From a virus: a stretch of DNA of 61,596 nt. A model generated the notes under the pieces. The model had not been told where the DNA came from. It worked only from the letters and a program-made list of their open reading frames with translations, and ran no database searches. The position numbers and the translations under genes were made by a program. Where the stretch lies: IMG/VR virus record IMGVR_UViG_3300005366_000004, positions 1 through 61,596 of that record; one strand, written 5' to 3'. Of the stretch, positions 35,662-45,980 are shown piece by piece; positions within the stretch are counted from its first letter, which is position 1; each line of letters begins with the position of its first letter.

Positions 35662-35684
35662 AAAAAAGCCGCTCAATGGCGGCT
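35662..35684 (-). terminator. Intrinsic terminator directly upstream of the portal gene
   Basis: Minus strand AGCCGC-CATTGA-GCGGCT then TTTTTTATTGCC; it overlaps the terminase stop by one base. The stem and T-run are clear; the next ATG follows ~20 bases later with a poor ribosome site. Confidence 0.7.
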
Positions 35685-37273
35685 TATGTTGCATATGGGT
35701 TGCTGCGTTTTCGGCTGTAATCCGCCGTCTCCGGCTCGTCATCCTCATACTCAGGAAGCACAAGCATGTTCGTATCTTTGAGATAGATCATTGCCTGCGT
35801 GAAAGAATCAACCAGGTCGTCATGTTCTCCGTTCGGGAACTGCTCGCACTGCTTCAGCAGCTTGCGCGCCCATGTGATCGGCTTGCCCGGCTCCTTCTTC
35901 GACTCCAGTACGTAGATCACATCCATTTCGAGGACTGGCGCAGTCAAGTGCGCTCTCAGCTCCTTGCTTGCCTTCCCTGGGTTGTACGTGTGAACCGGGA
36001 TGCCAGTGCGGCGCAAGTCCCGAATCAGCGCGATCCCGCTCGCCTTTTCCTCGATCATCAGCATGTCAGCCCTGCGCGCCGGATGCATCGGGTCATCCTT
36101 GACACCGCCGTACCTTGCGCTCCAGTCGTCGATCAGCTTCGGGCGAAGATCTGGATAGCTGATATGCTCGTCCCACGCATCCAGCAGCAATGCACACTTG
36201 CGGCGCTTGTGCGTGAAGATCCCCCACACAGTGCAGGCTGTCGGATCGTTGGACTCGTCATCTGTAAATGCTGTGTCGTAGCTTTGCAGGACGAATTCCA
36301 AGTCTGGCAATGGCGTGTGTGCGGGCCAGAGCTGGAAATGATCAGTCCTCAGAATGCCACCACCGGCTGGAGACGGACGCTGCTGCAACTGCCCTGCCGC
36401 GCCGTACTCACCGAGTCGCGTGGACAGCGTCTTGACCACGTTCTTCGGGTACAAACTTGGCCACAGAAGCTCACCGTGCTCAGTGCGCGGATCGCCGTCC
36501 AACGGTGTCCTACACTGCGGCCCCTCGTACTCCATCGGCAAGCAGAGATGCACCCAGTCTTTCTTATAGTCCGCCTGCTCCATGATGTGACCGGACAGGT
36601 CTTTCTCGTGGAGCCGCTGCATTACCACGACAGTGGCAGCACCACGAGATGCGCCACGAGACGAGAGCGTGCGGTCAAACCAGTTCAACGCTTGGACACG
36701 TTCAGCATCCGATTCCGCCTTTTTGACGTTGTGCGGATCGTCGATGATCTTGCGGTCTGGGTGGTGACCAGTGCCGCGCCCGCCGACAGAGGACGACATG
36801 CGGAAGCCGCCAGCAGTCAATGCGTAATGCAGCTTCTGGTTGATATCCTTGCGGATCGCAATGCTAGGCCACAGCCGCTGATACCATTCGGACGTAATGA
36901 TGTCCCGGCATTTCATCGCGTCGCGGATAGACAGCGATTCATCGTATGACGCACCAAAGTACCGAAGCGCCGGGTTCTGCGTCCACTCCCACGCGGGCCA
37001 CATGACCGACACGAGAATTGACTTCATCGTCCCTGGAGGAACGTTAATCAACAGGTTCTTGATCTCGCCGCGAGTGACGGCTTCGAGATGCTCACAAATG
37101 ACATCGATGTGCCAGTTGTGTTTGTATTCTTCGGCTGGCTCAATGACGTGCCATGCTTGCTCTACGAAATTAACTAGCTTTGTGCAGTGACGGCGCTCTT
37201 GCTCCAGTTCTGCAGCGGCCAGCAGTTCCTTGATCCTAGCTGGCGTGAGGTTGCCTAGGTCTGAGAGGTTCAT
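35684..37273 (-). CDS. Terminase large subunit
   Basis: 529 residues. ATPase: Walker A-like VPPGTMKS at 78-85, then RYFGASYDESLSIRDAMK and the DDPHN acid pair near 175. Nuclease domain: DTAFTDDES (~345), EEKASG, and GEHDDLVDSFTQA (~490) supply the RNase-H-type acidic residues. This is the packaging motor of phages with headful or cos packaging; the type cannot be told. It starts 3 bases after the HEAVH gene's stop. Confidence 0.95.
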   Translation of the reverse strand: MNLSDLGNLTPARIKELLAAAELEQERRHCTKLVNFVEQAWHVIEPAEEYKHNWHIDVICEHLEAVTRGEIKNLLINVPPGTMKSILVSVMWPAWEWTQNPALRYFGASYDESLSIRDAMKCRDIITSEWYQRLWPSIAIRKDINQKLHYALTAGGFRMSSSVGGRGTGHHPDRKIIDDPHNVKKAESDAERVQALNWFDRTLSSRGASRGAATVVVMQRLHEKDLSGHIMEQADYKKDWVHLCLPMEYEGPQCRTPLDGDPRTEHGELLWPSLYPKNVVKTLSTRLGEYGAAGQLQQRPSPAGGGILRTDHFQLWPAHTPLPDLEFVLQSYDTAFTDDESNDPTACTVWGIFTHKRRKCALLLDAWDEHISYPDLRPKLIDDWSARYGGVKDDPMHPARRADMLMIEEKASGIALIRDLRRTGIPVHTYNPGKASKELRAHLTAPVLEMDVIYVLESKKEPGKPITWARKLLKQCEQFPNGEHDDLVDSFTQAMIYLKDTNMLVLPEYEDDEPETADYSRKRSNPYAT

Positions 37274-40309: not shown

Positions 40310-43300
40310 TTAATAAGTATCCGCGAAGTAATATTTCGGGTCGTCTGAGTAGTCAATTCCAGTAGCACGCGATGCCAGATCATCGATGAGCGCTTGATTG
40401 ACCGTCGCGCCTGCTGCTTTGGCTAGCTTCAAAGCGCCATGAATATTTGATAGGTAACCGCTTGCAGACAGAATGCCTCCAATGCAGTTTGTCGAAGGCG
40501 GATTTGCGACCACGGTGAAGGTGGCTCCGGGTGCCGCAGTATTTGTCGGTGCAATCGGCGTTCCGCCAGGCGTAGCGGCTAGTTGGAAAGTGGTGCCAGA
40601 TTTATTGACGACGTAGTACGGGGTGCAAGCAGAGAATCCGCCGGGAGCGGTAGTCTCAATGTTTTCCCACATCATCACATCACCGTTTTGTACAGAGAAT
40701 CCTTGGAGCTGAGTCCCAATCGTGAATAATCCAGTCCCTGAATCCCACGACGCAGCAGGCTGAAGCGTGTGATATGCAGTCTGCGAAGGCGACGTAATCA
40801 GGTTTGCCGCGCCAGTGCTTCCGACACGAACGACTGAGCGATATGCAGTGATGTGCCATGCACCATGATTGGTGCGCACCCAGTCGTACCACTTCGACAG
40901 ATGGCTAGCCACAGCAGTGGCTGAAGAGCTTTCCGTCATCTTTGCGACATGCGACGCAGCCTGCAAATAGTATCCATTCATCCATGGCGACAAATTGCAA
41001 ATATCCGTGAAATGCAGCAGGCCGGATGTCTTCCAGAACGTTGTTGCTAGGTTGTTCGTGAAGTCCATCACTGCCGCATAATTCGCCGTTGAAAGATCGT
41101 TGAAGTATGTCTTGTACGCTGCACATTGAGGCGGCGAATCTGGCAGTAGAGCTGCAGTCCAGCCAATATCACGAGCCGCCCATGCGCCAGCACGTAGCTG
41201 TACGTTGAACGTAACAACGCCGTTATAGCTGGTGCCGTTGATCGATATATTCCGCTCCGCGCCGCAGTTTTGGGCTGTTGCAGTCGTGACCCCTGTATAC
41301 CCACCAGAAACCGCAACGTTAGCCATCTCCAGCATCAAATCCAGATATTGCGGCTCGCCGGTCATCATGTACGGATAAGACGCGAACGCAGGCATATGGT
41401 CAAACGTCAGCGATTGCAAGGCGCTAAACGTCATTGACCCAGTTGGATTCGTAAACCCGGACGTATGCGACGTGTTGCCATCCCAGCGGAAGCTATTGCT
41501 AGACGCAGGCATGCCGCTGTAAGTGCCGCTGTTGCACGGTTTGACTGTCTTGGTGCTCGAATTGAGCACGTGAATCGCTGCATGCCCAAGAGCCAGCCCG
41601 ACAACACGCGACACCTGCTGATCGGTGGCGCGCTGGGACAGTAGAGTCTTGACGTGCCACGTCGGCATCACGCCGATGTCCGACCGTTCGCCAGTTCCGC
41701 CGTTGGCGCGCTGTACCGGACCCATCGTGCCCAGTGAATAGCTATAGCTCTGTTGAGTCGTCGGGGTTGTTGTTGCGTATGTCGGCACGAGGCCGGTTGA
41801 CATCCAATACTGAGCGTTATGCACGACTCTGACTGTCGCATCAGCAGAAACGCTGCCGCCTGCCTGCACGTAGTCCCACATTGCCGACGTGCCGCAAGTC
41901 CACAGCGAGCCGAAATGTGTGAGATACGGATACGCCGTCAATGTCATTCCTGACGCGGAGCCGGACAGAGAAATTGGAGCAGTCCCGCCGAGGAAGTTGG
42001 AGGCAGCTTGAAGCTTTAAGGTATCTGTTCCGAAGCTTTGCGTGAAATACGAGGTGCCGGAGACCAACGGCGATGGTAACGTTGTGCCAGATGCGCGGAC
42101 AAGCGTCTGATCCTCAAATCCATGCGCGGTAACAGTTAAGCTATCGCCGCTTGTGTAGCTTGCACTCCTCGGAGTCGTATTCGTCCAGCAGTCCCGCACC
42201 GTGGACGCGCCATTCTTCAGCAGGAAACTTGAGAACGAACGCCCGCATTTCGCAGGGCTATCCACGTCATACCAGGGCTGCGTTACGCGCCCGAGGTAGC
42301 GCAAACCGTAAAGATTGCCGCTTGCATCCTGAAGCGCCGAGACGTACCAGTAGCATTCCAATTGGCCGTGGTTCGATCCCGACTGCATGAATTGCTGACG
42401 AATACGCCACACCTTGCCGACTGGCCCATCTCCAAACGTCAGGATGTCATCGTTATCCGTAACGCCTTGGTTAAGGCTGGATGTCCACGTACCGGACAGG
42501 TTATCCAAGCCTGTGACGACCACTTGCAAGTCTGTCGAACCCGAGGACAAGTCCGCAAGTGAGCGCGACGAACTGCCCGGTGCCGTGATGGTTGACTTGA
42601 CGTTGACCGTAATGGAGCCGCTACCAGCAACAGTCGTCGGCACGCGAATCAGGAAAGACGCAAACTTCAGCGAGCCGTCAGACCAATACGTCTGGCCGAA
42701 CATCGTGTAGGGGATATTCGTCCCGCCTACAGTCTCAAATTTCGGATAATGCCCGGTTGCGATGTCGCCCTTTTTGAAAGGGTGGCCAAACATCGGCGGG
42801 ATAAAATCTGCGGCAACCGTTGACCCGGATGTGTTCGAGACAGTAAATGTCGTCAGAACGCTACTGTCAGAGTCCGGCAAGTTAGCTGGTGCGTCAATGT
42901 GGAAGCTAGAGGTAAGACCGAGACCTGAGACACCATCCAAATTGGCCGACAGCACGTAATCACGCGCCGCGCCTGTGAGGCCAAGTGTCCCCTGCACCCA
43001 TTCGCCGCCTGCGCTGGTAATGCGAATAACTGCCGCGCCTGTATTGAGATCCGCCGCGCTGTTCGTGGTTACGCTTGATACAGTGCCCAAGCTGGTCGTG
43101 CTGCCGTTGGCATAGGTGATGGAGCCGGTCAGGCTCGCCTGGAAGCGAGTTGTCCCCGTACTCCATACGGTTGCTGCGCTGGCGTTAGATGCAGCAGACG
43201 GATTGTGCTTGATGGTGATCGTCTTATTCGATCCAAGGACGGTGGCAAGCGTCTCAAGCCATCCGCCCTTCGTAACCGCATCACCTAAAGCATCTTCCAA

Positions 43301-43321
43301 TGCCGCGCTGTAACCAACCAT
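40310..43321 (-). CDS. Large tail-fibre/tailspike with RIFT-barrel lyase-like middle and helical toroid-like domain
   Basis: 1003 residues from ATG 43321; AAAGG lies 8 bases upstream. Residues ~175-230 read FGHPFKKGDIATGHYPKF and then FGQTYWSDGSLKFASFLI, like the N-terminal RIFT barrel of PcRGLX/YetA-type polysaccharide lyases. Residues ~640-860 (YLDLMLEMANVAVSGGYTG, RAGAWAARDIGWTAALLPDS, FTDICNLSPWMNGYYLQAASHVAKM) look like an alpha/alpha toroid found in lyases. The N-terminal ~160 residues would bind the virion. Proposed depolymerase for capsule or exopolysaccharide; this is inferred from fold-like patterns, without a confirmed active site. Confidence 0.65.
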   Translation of the reverse strand: MVGYSAALEDALGDAVTKGGWLETLATVLGSNKTITIKHNPSAASNASAATVWSTGTTRFQASLTGSITYANGSTTSLGTVSSVTTNSAADLNTGAAVIRITSAGGEWVQGTLGLTGAARDYVLSANLDGVSGLGLTSSFHIDAPANLPDSDSSVLTTFTVSNTSGSTVAADFIPPMFGHPFKKGDIATGHYPKFETVGGTNIPYTMFGQTYWSDGSLKFASFLIRVPTTVAGSGSITVNVKSTITAPGSSSRSLADLSSGSTDLQVVVTGLDNLSGTWTSSLNQGVTDNDDILTFGDGPVGKVWRIRQQFMQSGSNHGQLECYWYVSALQDASGNLYGLRYLGRVTQPWYDVDSPAKCGRSFSSFLLKNGASTVRDCWTNTTPRSASYTSGDSLTVTAHGFEDQTLVRASGTTLPSPLVSGTSYFTQSFGTDTLKLQAASNFLGGTAPISLSGSASGMTLTAYPYLTHFGSLWTCGTSAMWDYVQAGGSVSADATVRVVHNAQYWMSTGLVPTYATTTPTTQQSYSYSLGTMGPVQRANGGTGERSDIGVMPTWHVKTLLSQRATDQQVSRVVGLALGHAAIHVLNSSTKTVKPCNSGTYSGMPASSNSFRWDGNTSHTSGFTNPTGSMTFSALQSLTFDHMPAFASYPYMMTGEPQYLDLMLEMANVAVSGGYTGVTTATAQNCGAERNISINGTSYNGVVTFNVQLRAGAWAARDIGWTAALLPDSPPQCAAYKTYFNDLSTANYAAVMDFTNNLATTFWKTSGLLHFTDICNLSPWMNGYYLQAASHVAKMTESSSATAVASHLSKWYDWVRTNHGAWHITAYRSVVRVGSTGAANLITSPSQTAYHTLQPAASWDSGTGLFTIGTQLQGFSVQNGDVMMWENIETTAPGGFSACTPYYVVNKSGTTFQLAATPGGTPIAPTNTAAPGATFTVVANPPSTNCIGGILSASGYLSNIHGALKLAKAAGATVNQALIDDLASRATGIDYSDDPKYYFADTY

Positions 43322-43335
43322 CAGCAGCCTTTCAA

Positions 43336-43371
43336 ATAAAAAAGGCCCGCTCACATTTCTGCGGCGGGCCG
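43336..43371 (-). terminator. Intrinsic terminator directly upstream of the 1003-aa fibre gene
   Basis: Minus strand GGCCCGC ... GCGGGCC (7-bp arms, 13-base loop) followed by TTTTTTATTTG and AAAGG, the ribosome site of the fibre gene. Confidence 0.75.
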
Positions 43372-43402
43372 AAGTACCCAAGGGAGGTTGGGGTGAAGGA
43401 AA

Positions 43403-44280: not shown

Positions 44281-44496
44281 TCATCGCAGTATCCCGAGAC
44301 GGATCATGCGATCTACAGCGTCTTCCAGCTCTTGGAATGGCGCTTTCGGAGGTGGCACGAATAGCGTGAAGCCCTCCAGCAGATCGATTGGCGGCTTTGC
44401 TGGCTTGCGATGGATAACGCGGAATGTTTTGCCTGCCAGCTTATTGGAGCCGGTTGGCATGCCGCCGAGTTGCTTTCTAATGTCGGAGTTGCTCAT
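44281..44496 (-). CDS. 71-aa hypothetical late protein
   Basis: KQLGGMPTGSNKLAGKTFRVIHRKPAKPPIDLLEGFTLFVPPPKAPFQELEDAVDRMI. Starts at ATG 44496 within an ATGA overlap with the 46-aa gene. The longer frame up to 44691 would run through the tR'-like hairpin, so was not used. Unknown function. Confidence 0.6.
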   Translation of the reverse strand: MSNSDIRKQLGGMPTGSNKLAGKTFRVIHRKPAKPPIDLLEGFTLFVPPPKAPFQELEDAVDRMIRLGILR

Positions 44497-44633
44497 GATC
44501 CCAATCTCCCCCAGAACTTTGCCACCCACTCCGGGCTTTTGTGCTCCGGCGTATTGCGCTCGCGGCGCTCCATTAAGGACTGCATTTGACGGCGCACATC
44601 GCGCTTGGTCTTTGATCTGGACTGAGACTGCAT
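44493..44633 (-). CDS. 46-aa basic protein, first late gene after tR'
   Basis: QSQSRSKTKRDVRRQMQSLMERRERNTPEHKSPEWVAKFWGRL. GGAGGTTGCC precedes the ATG at 44633, and the terminator tail runs straight into it. Arg-rich, helical. Unknown function. Confidence 0.6.
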   Translation of the reverse strand: MQSQSRSKTKRDVRRQMQSLMERRERNTPEHKSPEWVAKFWGRLGS

Positions 44634-44647
44634 GGCAACCTCCAAAT

Positions 44648-44681
44648 GAAAAAGGCCGATCCTTTTCAGGTTTCGGCCTTT
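44648..44681 (-). terminator. tR'-like terminator after the late promoter
   Basis: Minus strand AAAGGCCGA (44673-44681 on the other strand as TCGGCCTTT) pairs with TCGGCCTTT at 44651-44659, then TTC. It lies ~30-60 bases downstream of the candidate late promoter. In lambdoid phages such a terminator is read through only with Q. Confidence 0.7.
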
Positions 44682-44714
44682 GTAGACGCACTTTTGACGT
44701 GTATCTAATTCGGC

Positions 44715-44743
44715 ACTATAGCGGACAAGTTTGTTTTTGTCAA
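44715..44743 (-). promoter_or_regulatory. Consensus late promoter (pR'-like)
   Basis: On the minus strand TTGACA (44743-44738), a spacer of exactly 17 bases, then TATAGT (44720-44715). This is the strongest promoter match in the window. A terminator follows within ~65 bases and the whole structural operon lies downstream. It lies at the end of the HNH gene and downstream of the Q-like gene, matching the order Q-pR'-tR' in lambdoid phages. Confidence 0.8.
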
Positions 44744-45420
44744 AATGATTCATGATTAAACTTGTTCGACTTCGTTCTATTTTCCTGCCGCGGAATTACC
44801 CGGAGATTGAACTCACAATGAAGTCCGCAGACCCTTTTATTTACGATTGGAATAATGTGGTCGACCTCATGAGGAACCCCGGTTTTCTCACTGAGCCTAT
44901 CCCGCTCTAAATAAACCTCAACCATCTTGTCCTGGTTAGCCCATCTTGGGGTGGCTAGCCTAATCAGGACCGCCCTTCGCTCTTTTGGATCTTTTGTATT
45001 TTGAATAACAGAATGCCAATGTTTTTTCAATTCTGGATTCGTCCATGGGTTTTTCAATGCAATCATCTCTATTGCATTTTTTGTCCAATCGAGCTGACTC
45101 ATGCGGAATTTTGACCCTCTAAATCGCTCGGAATACTCGTAGGGCGTTATTAGAATTTGGCAAAGGAAGTAACTTACATCCTCCCCGGTTGTCGCTTCAT
45201 ACCAAGCCTTAAATCCTGCGCCGCGCAGTTCTTCGTGAATCTTGGCCAAGAGAAGCGCATCATGCTCCTGCGCCCGAATCAAACTTAAGCGGCGCGATTC
45301 TTTCTTCCTCGCAATTTCTTCCCGCTCGCCCTGCATATTACGAAGATGGTGAATTTCGGCCTTCCATTCTTGGCGTTTCTGCCTTGCCTGCTCATTGCGC
45401 TGCTCTCTAGTCATTGCCAT
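44740..45420 (-). CDS. HNH endonuclease
   Basis: 226 residues from ATG 45420, preceded by GGGGGG. C-terminal GVPHEVDHIIPIVNKRVCGLHCEFNLRVIPRQENRTKSNK is the HNH core (DHIIP, NLRVI, N in the last helix). The N-terminal half is a basic coiled coil (REQRNEQARQKRQEWKAEIHHLRNMQGEREEIARKKESRR). Phage HNH enzymes near terminase or late genes aid packaging, or are homing-type. The role here is unknown. It lies between the Q-like gene and pR'. Confidence 0.8.
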   Translation of the reverse strand: MAMTREQRNEQARQKRQEWKAEIHHLRNMQGEREEIARKKESRRLSLIRAQEHDALLLAKIHEELRGAGFKAWYEATTGEDVSYFLCQILITPYEYSERFRGSKFRMSQLDWTKNAIEMIALKNPWTNPELKKHWHSVIQNTKDPKERRAVLIRLATPRWANQDKMVEVYLERDRLSEKTGVPHEVDHIIPIVNKRVCGLHCEFNLRVIPRQENRTKSNKFNHESF

Positions 45421-45440
45421 GAATCCCCCCCGAAAACCAA

Positions 45441-45980
45441 TTAAGCATCTAAAAATCCGCACATCTTTTCTAATCTATCTGCCGCTTCGCGCTGAGCATC
45501 GCAATCAAGCTGCCTTAGCTTTTCCCAGATCGCATTTTTCTGATCATAGGCAGTTGATTTTGGAACATTGATCCTCTCAGCAATTTCCCTGATCGACACG
45601 CCGCGTTCGTAGTACGCCCGGATGATTGCATGCCGCATGGTTCGGACTGACATTCCAGTAATCCATTGCGTAGACCACTCGGCCAAGTTCGCCACGGCTT
45701 CCTTGTACTCGTCCAGCATCTTGTCCGATCCGCAGCAAGGGCACTCTTCATATTTGAGTGAGTAGCGCGCAATGATGCAAGACCTCTTAAACGACGGCAT
45801 TTTATCGATCTCGCCTCGGATAAATCCGGCTTGGCCAGCTCCATCCAAGGAAACAAGACCTTTACCAGAGCCAACGATTCCAGTCTTCATCATCTTTGCA
45901 TGCGGCGATACGGCATATTGCTGCGCCGAGAAGCGGAACGCAAAAATCAAAGCCTCGTTTGTGTTCTTAAACAATTCCAT
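45441..45980 (-). CDS. Q-like late antiterminator candidate (zinc finger + HTH)
   Basis: 179 residues from ATG 45980, with GGGAGG 5 bases upstream. A CPCCG motif (YEECPCCGSDKM) suggests a zinc site; the C-terminal part SIREIAERINVPKSTAYDQKNAIWEKLRQL is a helix-turn-helix. It is the last PR-operon gene before the HNH gene and the pR'-like promoter, the place of Q in lambdoid phages. Lambda Q likewise has a zinc-containing DNA-binding domain. Sequence identity to a known Q cannot be claimed. Confidence 0.6.
   Translation of the reverse strand: MELFKNTNEALIFAFRFSAQQYAVSPHAKMMKTGIVGSGKGLVSLDGAGQAGFIRGEIDKMPSFKRSCIIARYSLKYEECPCCGSDKMLDEYKEAVANLAEWSTQWITGMSVRTMRHAIIRAYYERGVSIREIAERINVPKSTAYDQKNAIWEKLRQLDCDAQREAADRLEKMCGFLDA

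Follow-up and report, generated by a model that had tools for sequence, protein, structure and literature searches.

The locus raises the question of how the late genes of this phage are switched on, and whether the 179-aa protein encoded ahead of them may be an antiterminator of the Q type. The whole stretch of DNA analysed, 61,596 nucleotides from IMG/VR record IMGVR_UViG_3300005366_000004, is referred to as the window. A first-pass annotation had read the locus as a lambda-style Q/pR'/tR' module with the consensus promoter TTGACA-17-TATAGT. This promoter is present on the minus strand (44743-44715) and is the best sigma70-type match found: no other site in the 61.6-kb window matches at 11/12 positions or better, and no other match of at least 10/12 has a terminator-like hairpin within 120 nt downstream. 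With two mismatches allowed, 2 promoter matches were found against 1.98 expected by chance. As a bare sequence match, the late promoter is only mildly improbable by chance, and the case was therefore put to comparative and structural tests. On the opposite strand, a promoter-like sequence, TTGACG-17-TATAGC (44694-44722, +), overlaps the late promoter and shares its -10 region; this match lies within chance expectation.

The hairpin with a T-run that had been noted shortly after the promoter was likewise recovered, at 44681-44648 (-), and consists of AAAGGCCGA-N13-TCGGCCTTT followed by TT, i.e., a 9-bp stem with a U-tract. For the 65-nt leader, a folding energy of -23.9 kcal/mol was computed (z -5.1), a stability reached by none of 200 shuffled sequences. 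We infer a start site near 44708 (-), which would give a leader of about 60 nt with the stem beginning near +26. In relatives, the terminator stem is kept despite many base-pair exchanges, in a set that is selected for pairing by construction. An Rfam search of the window yielded no match and hence no known leader RNA. Upstream of the terminator, a small hairpin (GACACT..AGTGTC) was considered as a conserved RNA element of the leader; it is clear in some relatives but absent in others and, being patchy, was not taken as a universal RNA signal. The coordinates of all features are collected in Table 1.

Table 1. Features of the late-gene locus in the window.
Feature	Position	Strand	Basis
179-aa protein, putative antiterminator of the Q type; GKGL..DGA.QAG motif, CPCC cluster, HTH at residues 113-150 (approximate)	45441..45980	-	ORF, motifs, fold
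HNH endonuclease gene, between Q-like gene and promoter	44740..45420 (ORF 44740-45462, ATG 45420)	-	ORF, relatives
-35 element TTGACA, late promoter (pR' analogue)	44738..44743	-	promoter scan
17-bp spacer AAAACAAACTTGTCCGC, candidate antiterminator-binding element	44721..44737	-	relatives, palindrome enrichment
-10 element TATAGT, late promoter	44715..44720	-	promoter scan
TTAGAT, -10-like box among the first transcribed bases; candidate element for a sigma-dependent pause	44703..44708	-	relatives
TAGATACACGTCAAAAGTGCGTCTA, conserved part of the leader; forms a weak hairpin in part of the relatives	44683..44707	-	folding, relatives
Intrinsic terminator (tR' analogue), 9-bp stem and U-tract	44648..44681	-	hairpin scan, folding, relatives
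46-aa ORF preceded by the ribosome-binding site GGAGG; first gene past the terminator	44493..44633	-	ORF reading
Intrinsic terminator inside the late cluster, readthrough expected to be needed	43344..43370	-	terminator scan
Terminase large subunit, start of packaging/head genes	35684..37273	-	annotation
Intrinsic terminator between terminase and portal genes	35666..35685	-	terminator scan

Decisive support for the late promoter comes from its recurrence in relatives. Among loci with at least 200 nt of downstream sequence, a promoter-terminator unit placed between -40 and +200 relative to the stop codon, and thus at most 200 nt from the homologous gene, was found in 68/116, compared to 68/7319 control windows (0.93%) taken from the same loci; the homologous loci are interrelated, so that these counts are not independent. 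In these loci (0.9% of the controls), as in the window with its hairpin, an intrinsic terminator stands between the late promoter and the late genes. In 29 of the 68 units, the distance from the -35 to the start of the stem is 62 nt, and in 50 it is 61-65 nt; in 27 the -35 overlaps the homologous gene's own stop codon. At least 19 more loci carry the unit outside the 200-nt count, either displaced downstream (at least 17) or with a -35 below the scan threshold. The latter applies to L001 and L008, where the unit lies at the gene. Further downstream it is found in the window and in L070, L074, L075, L095, L104, L112, and L117, in the window and several of the others behind an inserted gene, as well as at 1.3-3 kb in nine more loci (L010, L014, L018, L033, L041, L054, L076, L085, and L125). 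In a separate genome sample, four of the five loci with downstream sequence contained the unit: in two it lies at the gene, and in the other two, including L144, which shares its unit with L104, it follows after about 1 kb. Far-downstream promoter-terminator matches lacking the pause box were left out of the module counts, and about a quarter of the homologue loci have no recognised module in the sequence covered. In L104, L144, L033, L041, L054, and L142, the Q-like gene and the promoter-terminator unit are separated by 1-3 kb of other sequence; such intervals are perhaps a hotspot for cargo genes.

The gene upstream of the promoter encodes an HTH protein, as the first-pass annotation had stated, and only the HNH gene lies in between (179 aa, 45441-45980). 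It starts with an ATG at 45980 preceded by GGGAGG. The strongest family motif, GxGKGL..DGA.QAG, corresponds to residues 39-52, and the cysteines of the window protein (C80, C82, and C83), candidate ligands for the zinc finger that the first-pass annotation had named, are located between two short strands, with CxC...CC found in many relatives. Searches against Pfam, PHROGs, and NCBIfam matched the C-terminal part only, to generic HTH or sigma70 region 4 entries, and none of the 50 family members searched has a known Q model listed at E 0.01 in these three collections, in line with the earlier remark that the putative Q resembles no obvious known Q. A profile of the 50 members against PDB sequences yielded no similarity to AlpA up to E 10, and the same applies to single queries. 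At the DNA level, no similarity of the locus was found in the phage collection. No paper describing the family as antiterminators was found in the literature searched, subscription papers excepted, and there is no mention of gp2 or of antitermination in the paper on the Bcep176 transcriptome (PMC12584637).

Homologues with about 30-34% identity occur in five phage records. In all four phages examined, Bcep176, Shewanella vB_Sb_QDWS, Achromobacter CF418P1, and Bordetella PHB09, the gene ends the early region and the terminase or other late genes come next; the Bcep176 homologue adjoins the end of its record. A profile scan of IMG/VR gave 253 confirmed matches, the best 80 of which were used further. 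A scan of genome contigs with the single 179-aa protein yielded no match, and one with the family alignment gave 44 loci. The hosts are mostly Burkholderiales and related lineages, with the family present in both phages and prophages. In even genome samples, it was found in 7/300 genomes of the order and 1/369 of the class, both counts including the genome already known as carrier. The records of L003 (OK094664.1, Shewanella phage vB_Sb_QDWS) and OP650936.1 ('Hujiaoplasma phage zrk29-1') are each 47,902 in length and have identical match scores; they are possibly one phage deposited under two host names.

An AlphaFold model of the 179-aa protein, built from 47 aligned sequences, reached a mean pLDDT of 86.6. 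In a Foldseek search against the PDB, the top two places were taken by chain G of the AlpA-loading complex and chain G of the AlpA-loaded one (probability 1.00, TM 0.60-0.63), and the next match had a probability of 0.11. VIA-align gave Z scores of 14.2 and 13.7 for AlpA over 152-154 of the 179 residues (3.2-3.4 A), 7.3 and 7.1 for lambda Q, and 4.5 and 4.3 for Q21, with the best unrelated row at 4.8. For the predicted model, the AlpA score is far above background; those of lambda Q and Q21 are weak evidence alone and, so taken, would be within the chance range for helical proteins. The predicted layout comprises eight helices, an ill-defined loop after helix 2 (low confidence 34-38), and an HTH formed by the last two helices. 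This resembles AlpA, which has eight helices, a loop after helix 2 that is disordered in the ring, and an HTH from H7-H8 (PMC9371919). AlpA contacts its target through R128, K138, S139, T140, and H142 (PMC9371919), and K141-S142-T143 of the model resemble the DNA-contact residues K138, S139, and T140. The predicted model thus appears to share the whole-protein fold of the AlpA/lambda Q structural class. As no sequence similarity to AlpA or any Q was detectable, the link to AlpA rests on the predicted model. The protein belongs to a new sequence family, with AlpA as nearest known relative by predicted fold.

Q proteins and AlpA need a sigma-dependent pause element at the start of the transcript (PMC9371919). 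At this position, about 8 nt past the -10, relatives contain a conserved -10-like box, e.g., TTCGATAC, TTAGATAC, and TCATATAC and similar sequences, further examples being CATTCGATAC, TTTCATATAC, TTCAGATAA, and AATTAGATAC. As a sequence feature, the -10-like element that belongs to a Q-type module can thus be recognised. The first-pass annotation had also pointed to the stretch between the -35 and the start as the place for a qut site. A candidate was indeed found in the -35/-10 spacer, where close relatives carry palindromes of the type CGGACA-AATA-TGTCCG, perfect ones being CGGACAAATATGTCCG (L008) and GTCCGGTTTGACCGGAC (L146); the palindrome of the window itself, however, is degenerate, with the right arm TTGTCCG kept and the left arm changed. 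In 38 non-redundant spacers, the inverted repeats have on average 4.29 paired positions compared to 3.70 in shuffles (sd 0.12, z 4.9), and in a fair share of these spacers the palindrome is weak or absent. The enrichment is consistent with a candidate binding element. A palindrome between -35 and -10 would also suit the operator of a conventional transcription factor that represses or activates the promoter, with the hairpin serving only to end early upstream transcripts, and the HTH of the 179-aa protein is by sequence closest to generic HTH and sigma70 region 4 domains. This explanation nevertheless appears very unlikely, as the AlpA alignment covers the whole protein and not the HTH alone, the hairpin follows the promoter at a nearly fixed distance that would be purposeless for an end-of-operon terminator, and a near-consensus promoter needs no activator.

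The window HNH gene ends within the late promoter, its TGA stop codon forming part of the -35 TTGACA. L001, the closest relative (93% identical), lacks the HNH gene, and its promoter starts 9 nt after the stop codon; compared to L001, the window has about 720 bp of intervening sequence and differs upstream of the -10. Relative to L001, the HNH gene of the window can be read as an insertion, through which the left-arm change in the spacer probably came about. This makes it conceivable that the insertion crippled the module in this phage by changing the left part of the binding element, the late genes being driven otherwise, which would agree with the replaced sequence and the degraded palindrome. 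We consider this highly unlikely, since the -35 matches the consensus and neither the right half-site TTGTCCG nor the pause box nor the terminator is damaged. Moreover, relatives with the same HNH gene keep the promoter with the HNH stop codon in the -35: the same family (36-43% identity) occupies the site between Q-like gene and promoter in L074, L095, L117, and L075. These HNH relatives were located by position, and a search of viral contigs for HNH relatives by the HNH protein's own peptides yielded none. Possibly, the HNH family is a mobile gene specialised for the junction between Q-like gene and promoter.

Downstream of the late terminator, the genes of the window include those for terminase, portal, head, tail-fibre, and DNA-ejection proteins. 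A 1023-aa ORF (40310-43381, -) without a PHROG match lies between late promoter and terminase gene, an unusual place for so large a gene. Four further strong intergenic terminators were found on the late strand (-), at 43370-43344, 35685-35666, 32304-32287, and 31528-31511; their position between same-strand late genes fits a need for processive antitermination. About 60 loci contributed 80 large downstream ORFs, which include terminases belonging to four Pfam types (GpA_ATPase 12, TerL_ATPase 11, Terminase_6N 10, and Terminase_3 6), so that the putative switch is combined with different packaging systems. That promoter and hairpin constitute a stand-alone trans-acting small regulatory RNA of about 60 nt, as strong promoter, stable fold, and clean terminator might suggest, is extremely unlikely, since relatives differ in the leader sequence and in its upstream hairpin while they keep the promoter-terminator spacing and the Q-like neighbour, and since the late genes follow directly. 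Phage leader RNAs can have secondary roles, and an RNA of this kind would not be exclusive of a Q-type switch.

Predicted fold, an order of gene, promoter, and terminator conserved across many phages, and two candidate cis-elements of the kind needed by Q-type factors, the spacer element and the -10-like pause box, all support the module proposed by the first-pass annotation, and the locus is very probably a late-gene switch of the Q type with the 179-aa protein as predicted antiterminator. By predicted fold, the protein stands closer to AlpA than to lambda Q, and the leader is far shorter than the lambda late leader of about 194 nt. The elements, their order and spacing, and their recurrence beside homologues can be read from the DNA itself, and together with the predicted AlpA-like fold they suggest the following mechanism. 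The promoter at 44743 would fire constitutively with host sigma70 polymerase, and transcription would, without a phage factor, halt at the hairpin after about 60 nt. The 179-aa protein, whose gene closes the early region, may read the -35/-10 spacer via its C-terminal HTH and engage polymerase held in a sigma-dependent pause on the -10-like box. By analogy to the biochemistry of AlpA and Q, its N-terminal ring would then narrow the RNA exit channel such that hairpins cannot form, and polymerase would pass the late terminator as well as four or more others within the late cluster. The spacer palindrome further suggests, as a hypothesis, a dimer at loading, which would set the protein apart from AlpA with its one protomer and from Q21 with two on a direct repeat. 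It is conceivable, at somewhat less than an even chance, that the family represents a separate, sequence-unrelated Q-type lineage of Burkholderiales phages with an inverted-repeat loading site, loading as a symmetric dimer, and a junction that is home to a specialised HNH gene with its stop codon in the -35.

In the AlpA structure paper, further Q-like antiterminators were anticipated to emerge from structure-based annotation (PMC9371919), and the 179-aa family appears to be one of these. The locus appears to be a switch that turns on phage structural genes and had not been annotated before. If true, a late-gene switch could be assigned to a large set of temperate phages with a regulator so far annotated as hypothetical; one of them is Bcep176, whose infection has been followed in a published RNA-seq series (PMC12584637). 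Nature offers numerous protein-spacer pairs on which recognition specificity, the palindrome's role, and the pause can be tested directly, and which may yield a set of orthogonal antiterminators.

Among known systems, GafZ of the Caulobacter gene transfer agent is similar by description, with an HTH, a putative binding element between -35 and -10 that is a near-perfect palindrome, and antitermination of phage-like structural genes (PMC11150451). For GafZ, no structural similarity to known antiterminators was reported, and it acts together with GafY and IHF (PMC11150451). Q21 of phage 21 (PMC6606751; PDB 6p19, 6p1b) follows a similar functional logic, but the fold match is weak (Z 4.5) and Q21 binds a direct repeat as two protomers, whereas the spacer element described here tends to an inverted repeat. 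The likeness to lambda Q (PDB 7ubm, 7ubn) includes the position of Q at the end of the early genes, followed by promoter, terminator, and late genes, a binding element in the spacer and a pause box, both candidates in the window, and a related predicted fold at a lower score. Unlike in lambda, the terminator is much closer to the start, an HNH gene lies in between, and there is no sequence match to Q models. The predicted fold is best matched by AlpA of Pseudomonas aeruginosa (PMC7969949, PMC9371919; PDB 7xya, 7xyb), an experimentally proven Q-type antiterminator that also has a C-terminal HTH and controls host cell-lysis genes. AlpA binds between -35 and -10, where the family described here has its candidate element, and both systems show a -10-like sequence at the start, a pause sequence for AlpA and a candidate one here, and an intrinsic terminator soon after, located at +26 (PA0807 promoter) and +54 (alpB) in the targets of AlpA (PMC7969949); the stem in the window, at about +26, corresponds to that of PA0807. 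A single AlpA binds the element GGGACG-N5-GGTA, which has not been described as palindromic. Unlike AlpA, the family described here combines a Cys cluster and an often palindromic spacer with phage packaging and head genes as putative targets and with a regulator gene adjoining its own predicted target.
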